From: Bacteroidales bacterium
GTDB taxonomy: Bacteria; Bacteroidota; Bacteroidia; Bacteroidales; VadinHA17
DNA: 37,555 nucleotides
Assembly: GCA_019429325.1 (NCBI GenBank)
Contig: JAHYJA010000011.1
Coordinates: 1-37,555, forward strand
Reading direction: 5' to 3'
Each line of letters starts with the position of its first letter. Within the stretch, counting starts at the first letter, position 1. A model generated the notes under the pieces. It saw nothing but the letters and a program-made list of their open reading frames with translations. It searched no databases and was not told the origin of the DNA. Both the position numbers and the translations under genes were made by a program. Shown here piece after piece: positions 3,552 through 23,553 of this stretch.

Positions 3552-3650
3552 TAATTCAACATAAATCAAAATAATACTTTCTCCTTAATTAAGTAATATG
3601 ATGATTCATTTTGTTTATTACATTTATCCCTTTCATAAAAATAATATATC

Positions 3651-8170: not shown

Positions 8171-9205
8171 ATGAAGAAGATGAAAGCGCTTGTGAAGGCG
8201 AGGCCGGAGCGGGGTCTCTGGATGGAGGAGGTTCCCGTTCCACGGCCCGGGCTTAATGATGTGATAATAAAGGTCGCAAAATCAGCTATCTGCGGCACGG
8301 ATCTTCACATCTTCAGGTGGGATGAATGGTCGCGGAAAACAATAAAGACACCTATGGTTATCGGTCACGAGTACATGGGATATATTGAAGAGATGGGTGC
8401 CGGCGTAACGAACCTCAAGCCAGGAGACAGGGTGACCGGAGAAGGGCACCTTGCATGCGGATATTGCAGGAACTGCCGCCGCGGCAAAGAGCATGTGTGC
8501 GAGAACAGTGTCGGCATAGGTGTCAATATCGACGGCTCATTTGCTGAATATGTAAGGATACCCGCCACCAATGTGGTCCCTCTCGACCCCAGGATACCAG
8601 ACGAATGGGCAGCAATAATGGACCCCTTCGGGAACGCCACCCATACGGCTCTGTCGTTCCCCCTTCTCGGAGAGGATGTCCTTGTCACCGGGGCGGGACT
8701 GATAGGCAGTATGGCAATTGCCATTGCCAGATATGCCGGTGCCAGATTCATCGTCGCAAGCGACCTCAGCGATTACCGGCTCGGGATTGCCAGGAAGATG
8801 GGAGCCACCCTTACTGTTAATCCATCAAAAGGCGAAAAAATCTCAGATACAGTTAAAAAGCTGGGAATGAGAGGTTTTGATATCGGACTGGAGATGTCGG
8901 GCTCTCCCGCCGCCTTCACGGAGATGATAAGCAATATGTACAACGGGTCAAGCATCTCCCTGCTTGGGATATTGCCCTCAGACTTCGCAGTGCCGTGGAG
9001 CGATATCATATTCAAGGCAATAACACTTAAGGGAATCTATGGCAGGGAGATGTGGGAGACATGGTATAAGATGGAAATGATGATAATAGGAGGTATCGAT
9101 CTTAACCCGGTTATTACTCACAGGTTCGGCATTGACGACTTTATGCTGGGATTTGAAATAATGGAGCAGGGGAACTGCGGGAAGGTTATACTGAACTGGG
9201 AATGA
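8171..9205 (+). CDS. tdh: L-threonine 3-dehydrogenase
   Basis: 344 residues, zinc-dependent medium-chain dehydrogenase. The catalytic zinc site is CGTDLHIF with GHEYMGYIEEMG; the structural zinc lobe shows ACGYCRNCRRGKEHVC. The nucleotide-binding fold carries VLVTGAGLIGSMAIAIA. IFRWDEWSRKTI and the 344-residue length distinguish TDH from sorbitol/alcohol dehydrogenases. It oxidises L-threonine with NAD+ to 2-amino-3-ketobutyrate, which Kbl splits. kbl lies downstream, but the two are separated by a 502-base gap holding a four-helix-bundle gene and repeats, so the operon appears interrupted. Confidence 0.92.
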   Translation: MKKMKALVKARPERGLWMEEVPVPRPGLNDVIIKVAKSAICGTDLHIFRWDEWSRKTIKTPMVIGHEYMGYIEEMGAGVTNLKPGDRVTGEGHLACGYCRNCRRGKEHVCENSVGIGVNIDGSFAEYVRIPATNVVPLDPRIPDEWAAIMDPFGNATHTALSFPLLGEDVLVTGAGLIGSMAIAIARYAGARFIVASDLSDYRLGIARKMGATLTVNPSKGEKISDTVKKLGMRGFDIGLEMSGSPAAFTEMISNMYNGSSISLLGILPSDFAVPWSDIIFKAITLKGIYGREMWETWYKMEMMIIGGIDLNPVITHRFGIDDFMLGFEIMEQGNCGKVILNWE

Positions 9206-9213
9206 TAATAGTA

Positions 9214-9245
9214 GAAAGTTTGTAAAGTGGAAAGTTTGTAAAGTT
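9214..9245 (+). repeat. left arm of complementary repeats flanking the four-helix-bundle gene
   Basis: Two tandem 16-base units, GAAAGTTTGTAAAGTG then GAAAGTTTGTAAAGTT, lie between tdh and the small gene. Their reverse complement matches the repeat tract downstream of that gene at 9635-9649 and 9668-9682 (14 of 15 bases; the mismatch becomes a G.U pair in RNA). Confidence 0.7.
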
Positions 9246-9253
9246 ATTCTAAT

Positions 9254-9598
9254 ATGAAGGTTGACAGATTTGAGGATTTACTTGTCTGGAAGAAATCAAA
9301 AGAACTGGCTGTTATTATTTATAAGCATTTCGAAAGTATTAAAGACTATGGCTTCAGAGAGCAGATTCTTCGCGCTTCGGTTTCGGTAATGAATAATATA
9401 GCTGAAGGATTCGAAAGAAAAACAAATAATGAGTTTAAACAATTTCTATTTATCGCAAAAGGATCCAGCGGTGAATTAAGATCTATGCTTTATCTTGCTC
9501 TGGAAACGAACAAAATATCTGAATCAGAATTCAAATCACTCTGCAATTCATCCCTGGAAATTTCCAAAATGTTATCCGGATTAATCAAAAAACTCTGA
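9254..9598 (+). CDS. four-helix-bundle protein (23S rRNA intervening-sequence protein, S23/IVP type)
   Basis: 114 residues, all helical. The family marks are clear: FEDLLVWKKSKELAV at the start, YGFREQILRASVSVMNNIAEG in the middle (family consensus: QxxRAxxSixxNIAEG) and FKQFLFIAKGSSGELRSML. Relatives are encoded inside intervening sequences of 23S rRNA and as stand-alone genes in many Bacteroidota; a related fold (Avd) serves diversity-generating retroelements. They form oligomers and are thought to bind nucleic acid, but the function is unsettled. The gene is AT-rich compared with tdh and kbl and sits between them. Complementary short repeats flank it at 9214-9245 and 9632-9702. No reverse transcriptase or variable repeat lies nearby, so this is not an Avd of a retroelement here. 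Confidence 0.85.
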   Translation: MKVDRFEDLLVWKKSKELAVIIYKHFESIKDYGFREQILRASVSVMNNIAEGFERKTNNEFKQFLFIAKGSSGELRSMLYLALETNKISESEFKSLCNSSLEISKMLSGLIKKL

Positions 9599-9631
9599 TG
9601 AGCCACACTAATAATTTAAAACGCTGATCAT

Positions 9632-9702
9632 TATAACTTTATAAACTTTATAACTTTATAACTTTATAACTTTATAAACTTTTTAACTTTTTAACTTTAA
9701 AC
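9632..9702 (+). repeat. right arm: tandem AACTTTATA-type repeats upstream of kbl
   Basis: About eight degenerate 8-9-base units of the form TAACTTTA/TAAACTTT run almost to the kbl ATG. Two exact copies of AACTTTATAAACTTT occur at 9635-9649 and 9668-9682. In RNA each could pair over 15 bases with the left-arm unit at 9231-9245, looping out the four-helix-bundle gene. Confidence 0.7.
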
Positions 9703-9707
9703 TACAT

Positions 9708-10898
9708 ATGTACAAGGAATATAAAAGTCACCTGGAAAGTATCTTAATCGAGATCCGGGAGGCCGGTCTCTTTAAAAATGAACGTATCATAGTCTCTCCC
9801 CAAGGCGCGGAAATTGAACTGGAGACAGGACAGAGGGTACTGAATTTCTGTGCCAACAATTACCTCGGCCTGTCAAATAACCACAAGCTCATCGAAGCTG
9901 CAAAAAACGCGCTCGATACACACGGTTACGGTATGTCATCCGTCCGCTTCATCTGCGGCACAACCGATCTGCATAAAGAACTGGAGAAGAAGATAGCGGA
10001 ATTCTTCGGCACTGAAGATACCATACTGTACGCAGCCTGTTTCGATGCCAACGGCGGGGTTTTTGAACCGCTTCTGACAGAAGGGGATGCCATTATCTCC
10101 GACTCTCTGAATCACGCATCGATCATCGACGGTGTAAGACTTTGCAAGGCTGTCCGCTACAGGTACAGAAATGCCGATATGGAAGACCTGGAGTCGCAGC
10201 TTCAGGCGGCCGGAGCACAGAGGTTCCGCCTGATCGTCACCGACGGGGTCTTCTCGATGGATGGCAATGTAGCGCCTCTCGACGCTATCGTGAAGCTTGC
10301 GGAAAAATATGATGCGATGGTGATGGTCGACGAATCCCATTCAGCCGGTGTAGTCGGAAAAACCGGGAGAGGCGTCACCGAGCTCTACGGCCTGACGGGG
10401 AAAGTTGAAATTATTACAGGCACTCTCGGGAAAGCTTTCGGGGGAGCGATCGGAGGCTTTACCACGGGCAGGAGAGAGATCATCGAACTTCTGCGGCAGA
10501 GATCCCGCCCATACCTCTTTTCCAACTCAATACCCCCGCTGGTTGCCGCTGCCGGAATAAAAATGGTCGAAATGATGACCGACACCAATGAACTGCAGGA
10601 TAAACTGCACAATAATTCGGAGTATTTCATCAGCAGGATGAAAGGCCTCGGGTTTGATATTAAACCCACCATGTCGGCAATATGCGCGGTGATGCTGTAC
10701 GATGCGAAGCTGTCGCAGGAGTTTGCCGCGAGACTGCTCAGCGAGGGAATCTATGTTATCGGATTCTATTACCCTGTTGTACCAAAAGGTGAGGCAAGAA
10801 TAAGGGTGCAGCTCTCGGCTGCCCATGAGAAAGATCACCTCGATAAGGCAATATCAGCTTTCGAAAAGACCGGGAGAGAGCTGGGAGTAATAAAATAG
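9708..10898 (+). CDS. kbl: glycine C-acetyltransferase (2-amino-3-ketobutyrate CoA ligase)
   Basis: 396 residues, PLP-dependent alpha-oxoamine synthase. Visible marks are NFCANNYLGLSNN, YGMSSVRFICGTTDLHKELE, the aspartate-containing VMVDESHSAGVVG, and the PLP lysine in TGTLGKAFGGAIGGF. Length and NNYLGL/SSVRFICGT fit Kbl rather than BioF or HemA. It cleaves 2-amino-3-ketobutyrate with CoA to glycine and acetyl-CoA, completing threonine breakdown started by Tdh. Its ATG follows only five bases after the A/T repeat tract, so its translation start may be influenced by that structure. It converges with nrdJ with only five bases between stop codons. Confidence 0.93.
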   Translation: MYKEYKSHLESILIEIREAGLFKNERIIVSPQGAEIELETGQRVLNFCANNYLGLSNNHKLIEAAKNALDTHGYGMSSVRFICGTTDLHKELEKKIAEFFGTEDTILYAACFDANGGVFEPLLTEGDAIISDSLNHASIIDGVRLCKAVRYRYRNADMEDLESQLQAAGAQRFRLIVTDGVFSMDGNVAPLDAIVKLAEKYDAMVMVDESHSAGVVGKTGRGVTELYGLTGKVEIITGTLGKAFGGAIGGFTTGRREIIELLRQRSRPYLFSNSIPPLVAAAGIKMVEMMTDTNELQDKLHNNSEYFISRMKGLGFDIKPTMSAICAVMLYDAKLSQEFAARLLSEGIYVIGFYYPVVPKGEARIRVQLSAAHEKDHLDKAISAFEKTGRELGVIK

Positions 10899-23529: not shown

Positions 23530-23553
23530 CTCTACGCTCTACGCTCTACGCTC
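23530..23553 (+). repeat. heptamer tandem repeat CTCTACG x3
   Basis: Three exact CTCTACG copies plus CTC lie in the 63-base gap between the lipoprotein gene and the pgk stop codon. Too short for a CRISPR; a member of the short-period intergenic repeats seen in this window. Confidence 0.6.

Follow-up and report, generated by a model that had tools for sequence, protein, structure and literature searches.

The intervening sequences (IVSs) found in the 23S rRNA of Leptospira and Coxiella carry an ORF of the S23 family between complementary ends that are able to pair in a stem. In the Coxiella IVS, tandem heptamers (GACAGAT) were observed in variable number just upstream of the ORF, and an origin from a mobile element was suggested (PMC4990558). 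In Bacteroidota and Cyanobacteriota, few small genes without known function are as common as S23 genes, which are also annotated as 'four helix bundle' genes. Short tandem repeats of the same unit length as the Coxiella heptamers were described separately. Heptameric intergenic repeats include GGGAATC of Xanthomonas, which is enriched and often inversely paired (inverted convergent), GGGGA(C/T)T of Nostoc (PMC4692102), and TAACTGA of Beggiatoaceae, Microcystis and Bacteroidetes (PMC4679880). They were reported to be unassociated with mobile elements and of unknown origin (PMC4692102, PMC4679880), and such intergenic tandem heptamers of bacteria have been without explanation for decades. Here we describe an S23 gene with complementary ends that is located between two protein-coding genes, and we compare it with these systems.

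The window, a stretch of 37,555 nucleotides from a Bacteroidales genome, was analyzed at its full length, and all features given here are on the forward strand. The gene for L-threonine 3-dehydrogenase, tdh (8171..9205; NCBIfam NF003808, E 6e-155), is followed by an S23 gene of the 23S rRNA-IVP four-helix-bundle type coding 114 amino acids (9254..9598; PF05635, E 7e-34, and TIGR02436), and then by kbl, the gene for glycine C-acetyltransferase (9708..10898; TIGR01822, E 9e-200). These profile matches bear out the gene assignments of the initial annotation, which was made from the sequence alone. The initial annotation had also found AAAGTTTGTAAAGTT at 9231-9245 to be complementary to AACTTTATAAACTTT at 9635-9649 and 9668-9682, with a single mismatch of G against T that becomes a G.U pair in the sense RNA. 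Both the coordinates and the mismatch were reproduced. The 15-base arms are, however, only part of longer tandem arrays, and what had been overlooked is that each arm is an array of a lineage-specific unit. The 5' arm (9210..9245) consists of AGTAGAAAGTTTGTAA AGTGGAAAGTTTGTAA AGTT with a period of 16, detected by TRF together with its inverted partner, and the 3' arm (9631..9703) consists of 9 copies of TTATAACT with a period of 8, also detected by TRF. The unit TTATAACT is the reverse complement of the unit in the 5' arm, and it was found at no other locus of the 3.4-Mb host genome. The whole inserted element extends over 9206..9707; these limits are approximate.

The arms are complementary over about 43 nt (9205-9247 against 9633-9675). 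Their alignment score was 35; dinucleotide shuffles averaged 20.7, and 35 was reached by 3 of 2000. Arms of this geometry placed at 3595 other positions in the window never reached this score (maximum 30), and no second inverted pair at most 600 nt apart scored 34 or more anywhere in the 37.5 kb. In the predicted fold of the sense RNA the arms pair around the entire S23 gene (z -2.5), as expected from the earlier proposal of a stem that loops out the whole gene. The element therefore resembles an rRNA IVS in having an ORF of the S23 family and of equal size enclosed by complementary ends. It lies, however, between protein genes and not in an rRNA helix, no Rfam match was found in 9100-9800, and its ends are long inverted tandem arrays of a lineage-specific unit. 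Because it is outside rRNA, it is not an rRNA IVS, though alike in architecture. Elsewhere in the window, a perfect tandem heptamer, (CTCTACG)3.4, was observed at 23530-23553 just past the end of pgk with no inverted partner, and it is possibly a solo array.

The S23 protein matched the whole PF05635 domain with 116.7 bits against a cut-off of 33.8, with no other match in this search; no transposase, recombinase or nuclease domain was found. Residues Q37, R39/R40, N48, E51, R55, S71 and E74 are invariant. Its AF2 model (pLDDT 97.6) superimposed on the S23 homologs XCC0516 and BT_0352 (PDB 2gsc and 2rld) with TM-scores of 0.90 and 0.86, and on Avd (4dwl) with 0.79. The pentameric Avd belongs to diversity-generating retroelements and binds their reverse transcriptase and RNA. 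The fold match extended to Avd in the reverse transcriptase-RNA complexes 8ub7 and 8ube. The S23 protein thus has the same pentameric four-helix-bundle fold as Avd, but the two share 17% identity, and no reverse transcriptase, template or variable repeat was found beside the S23 gene at tdh-kbl. No partner gene was found to travel with S23. Reverse transcriptase genes were present in 14 of 40 genomes of the genus and S23 genes in 37, so that the majority of S23-bearing genomes had none, and the only reverse transcriptase match of the host genome was on a different contig (C43). Dependence on reverse transcriptase was therefore rejected. Dependence on a Y1/RAYT transposase was also rejected, as copy numbers did not correlate and the repeats were different. 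A single-protein scan of viral contigs gave no sign of viral carriage.

As the initial annotation had stated, tdh and kbl are usually adjacent: this was the case in 25 of 29 informative loci of the same genus, with gaps down to 14 nt. The comparison with relatives yielded element-free junctions of 14 nt (L018, L019) or 23 nt (L033, L036). Other members of the genus showed remains of the element downstream of tdh. In L025 the interior was deleted and both arms were kept, L011 is likewise a relic retaining arms, and in L021 the left arm alone was left. In four loci (L010, L011, L012 and L020) an acyl-CoA ligase-like gene follows tdh in place of kbl, and in L010 and L011 the S23 element is located between tdh and this gene. 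The element at tdh-kbl is best explained as an old insertion that was inherited in a subclade and is decaying in some of its members. In about ten relatives the tdh-kbl junction contained a gene-less palindrome of about 100 nt with CTTTGTG/CACAAAG arrays (L013, L016, L017, L023, L024, L026, L027, L028, L031, L034 and L035), which are arranged inside-out in L031. We do not claim these palindromes as derivatives of S23 elements, since no S23 gene with a CTTTGTG unit was seen in the genus.

Association of S23 genes with inverted arrays proved to be general. The host genome has six more S23 genes besides the tdh-kbl copy, and each of the first five that were fetched was located between mutually inverted short-period arrays with its own unit. 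Flanks were tested in fixed windows, by aligning the 250 nt upstream of each gene with the reverse-complemented 250 nt that follow it. For 103 S23 genes of the genus, taken from about 38 genomes, the score was at least 24 in 87% with the own flanks and in 8.4% when flanks were swapped between loci, and at least 36 in 61% and 1.8%, respectively; control windows of equal geometry that were not at S23 genes scored 36 or more in 0.3%. Y1/RAYT genes of the genus (L235-L264), with inverted REP hairpins such as ACCGCGGAGCGGTT on both sides, were the positive control in this test. A scan of named genomes from many phyla gave 80 loci, 79 of them testable, and 73% of these scored at least 24, compared with 6.6% after swapping. 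Loci with a score of at least 30 came from Planctomycetota, Desulfobacterota, Neomarinimicrobiota, Gemmatimonadota, Acidobacteriota, Bacillota, Verrucomicrobiota, Chloroflexota, Pseudomonadota, Nitrospirota, KSB1, CPR bacteria and a Methanophagales archaeon, among others, and the range of the elements comes to about fifteen phyla. Cyanobacterial plasmids also have them, with classical heptamers such as TAGGGAG. The IVS-like architecture noticed at tdh-kbl, in which an S23 gene outside rRNA is enclosed by complementary ends, is thus widespread. Neither of the two sequence patterns that the initial annotation had named as counter-evidence was found, namely that all relatives carry the gene here without arms, or that arms occur widely without a link to such genes. 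The flank test detected no arms in 13% of S23 genes in the genus and in 27% across phyla, and none of 20 loci with weak arms was located in rRNA.

The units of the arms were mostly 7, 8 or 9 nt long and differed between lineages, while the two arms of one locus had equal periods or multiples of the same unit. The G-rich arm was the 5' arm in 67 of 77 cases. Mirroring of unit order between arms reached p<=0.05 in 13 of 84 loci; the pooled p-value of this permutation test was discarded as biased, because the arm limits had been chosen on the observed order. S23 genes also split other known operons, namely accB|accC, carA|carB, iscA|sufB and nrdB|nrdA, and were found upstream of dnaJ (L155, L269, L214, L271, L130, L275 and L134). 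The tdh-kbl junction is not special as a site for these elements.

We then compared the arm units of loci without a common neighbor gene. In this as in the other comparisons, most data came from metagenome assemblies, and neighbor genes were called by ORF length only. Arm units were interchangeable in 0% of pairs below 40% S23 protein identity, in 23% at 60-70%, in 56% at 70-80%, and in 7 of 7 pairs above 80%, and none of 500 permutations in a Mantel test of arm unit against protein lineage matched the observed association. Since the unit is the same on both sides and tracks the S23 lineage at unrelated sites, the gene and its arms travel together. Drift of the unit was visible downstream of tdh, where it changed in both arms, being AAAGTTTAT-like in the window and AAAGTCTGT-like in L011 and L025. 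The S23 genes are under strong purifying selection (median dN/dS about 0.08) with saturated synonymous sites, which indicates that arm units are kept in common over long times. The synonymous saturation between family members also indicates that most copies are old, and no recent jump was seen in the genus.

Presence and absence of the element were also compared outside the genus. Plasmids of Nostoc provided both occupied and element-free loci, with about 94-97% identity of the flanks. The insert was bounded by the arrays, and the element-free sites carried no array. At one Nostoc site TTCTA flanks the element on both sides, which is ambiguous, and duplication was not clear at the other Nostoc sites; a clear target-site duplication was found at none of the compared sites. 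The nrdB-nrdA loci (L134 and L142) were too diverged for their junctions to be compared. Presence and absence alone are compatible with deletion too, and orthologous inheritance and transposition are not always distinguishable in these data, except in one nested case. In L151, a gene-less element of about 180 nt with the same heptamer arms interrupts an S23 gene that is uninterrupted in L147 and L148. Because the gene is intact in these two loci, the polarity in L151 is that of insertion, not deletion.

Gene-less copies were found in several genomes. The host genome contained three gene-less inverted arrays with AGTGCCTAAAGTT/AAAGTGCCT arms and no S23 match (C22:12441, C65:581 and C153:6087; L294-L296). 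Their arms are identical in unit to those of an S23 locus in a relative (L077), also AGTGCCTAAAGTT/AAAGTGCCT, and have the same periods of 16 in the left arm and 9 in the right arm. Luteimonas possesses a single S23 gene, located between accB and accC, with GGGAATC arms. About 300 matches of GGGAATCGGGAATC were found in this genome, compared with 0 for the reversed-pattern control, and at least 10 close inverted GGGAATC pairs without a gene had the G-rich arm first in all cases. The gene-less pairs that were fetched had the unit, its orientation and an inner AAAGC-like motif in common with the S23 copy. The heptamer known from Xanthomonas, GGGAATC, forms the arms of the one S23 gene in Luteimonas, and heptamers of the TAGGGAG type, of the same length as the cyanobacterial STRRs, are arms in Nostoc.

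We propose that the insert at tdh-kbl belongs to a widespread family of small mobile elements, which we call S23 elements, and we assign to this reading a probability of roughly 0.7. At the level of sequence it is carried by the architecture and its generality, the matching units of the two arms, the co-inheritance of unit and protein, the presence and absence at corresponding sites, and the gene-less copies. The possibility of a mobile element, which the initial annotation had raised, gains from the element-free sites, the gene-less copies and the finding that gene and arms are inherited together at unrelated sites. Like DNA transposons and MITEs, S23 elements have terminal inverted repeats and are missing at matching sites (in tdh-kbl relatives and Nostoc plasmids), and their gene-less copies are short, inverted-ended and intergenic as MITEs are; unlike them, their ends are tandem arrays and they carry no DDE or other known transposase. 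The closest working analogy is with RAYT/REPIN systems, in which one small protein gene is flanked by inverted repeats and gene-less copies carry the same repeats, although S23 elements have no Y1/HUH transposase and their tandem arrays differ from the REP hairpins at Y1 genes of the genus.

By this analogy, we infer a possible mechanism of movement. The S23 protein would recognize the arms of its own element when these form a hairpin of repeated units, an idea based on the structure of S23 homologs, which are toroidal pentamers related in fold to Avd, a protein bound to nucleic acid. Host enzymes might then copy the element, and in trans its gene-less derivatives, to new sites, much as RAYTs act on REPINs. 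Hairpin-templated repair or copying could keep the arrays on the two sides similar as their unit drifts. The family probably includes the IVSs of Coxiella and Leptospira, as members that landed in 23S rRNA; the S23 elements outside rRNA differ from these IVSs in their long inverted tandem arrays and gene-less derivatives.

Another explanation is RNA processing like that of IVSs, in which the two arms pair into a double-stranded stem within the host mRNA and cleavage by RNase III releases the S23 mRNA and separates the expression of tdh and kbl. The Coxiella IVS is cut by RNase III in the stem of its terminal inverted repeats (PMC4990558), the arms at tdh-kbl pair in the predicted fold with the z-score of -2.5 given above, and S23 genes among co-directional neighbors are mostly in sense (43 versus 10 in the genus, 36 versus 5 across phyla). 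However, G.U pairs were not in excess over A.C among arm mismatches (143 versus 178 in the genus, 110 versus 134 across phyla), and the arms were equally strong outside sense operons. Dispersed gene-less copies with the same arms would also be left unexplained. The sense bias would be explained either by selection against antisense insertion or by a need for read-through transcription. We therefore consider this explanation improbable, and the suggestion of an mRNA-processing device uncoupling tdh from kbl was not upheld, though processing of the arms by RNase III may occur as a side effect.

Slightly less probable again is that S23 is a non-mobile chromosomal host gene for an autoregulated RNA- or DNA-binding protein, with arms that are its own operator or mRNA-binding site and co-evolve with it. 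Strong purifying selection, the association of arms with protein lineage and the sense bias are all consistent with this, as are similar split-operon positions in related species (accB-accC in both Luteimonas and Dokdonella), but related S23 genes at unrelated sites, element-free sites at about 95% identity and the existence of gene-less copies argue against it. Homing of S23 genes as passengers into pre-existing, independent inverted arrays, for which the variation of units between loci and the frequent gene-less arrays of some genomes (also at the tdh-kbl junction of relatives) might speak, is largely refuted and very improbable, because the unit tracks the protein lineage at unrelated sites, the empty sites of Nostoc have no array, and inverted arrays at such spacing are rare away from S23 genes.

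Under the mobile-element reading, S23 elements may explain the seven-base repeats of cyanobacteria and Xanthomonas. More tentatively, at somewhat below even odds in our judgment, they would form a separate class of mobile elements across Bacteria and an archaeon. Such elements would code for one factor only, a very small pentameric protein that resembles Avd and has no known nuclease, and would end in inverted arrays whose short unit drifts freely. Their gene-less derivatives would spread in trans, and the class would be the source of the cyanobacterial STRRs, the Xanthomonas GGGAATC and the rRNA IVSs. The family is apparently undescribed so far. The open-access full-text literature, to which our search was limited, contained no link of S23 or 'four helix bundle' genes to inverted tandem arrays or heptamer repeats. 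If S23 is the coded part of a mobile element that ends in such repeats, there would be one answer for the S23 genes, the heptamers and the origin of rRNA IVSs, and a transposition-like process would run on an Avd-related protein without a recognized catalytic domain.

Several S23 genes were found within 10-16 kb on two contigs (G001:C71 and G030:C4), each with its own arms or relics. On plasmid pANA02 of Anabaena sp. 90 (L131), an S23 element with long AGGTGACAGG arrays is located between cas6 and cas4 of a type I-D CRISPR locus. Its right array extends into the start of cas4 and is translated, and a plasmid 99% identical to pANA02 (L141) is without the S23 element.
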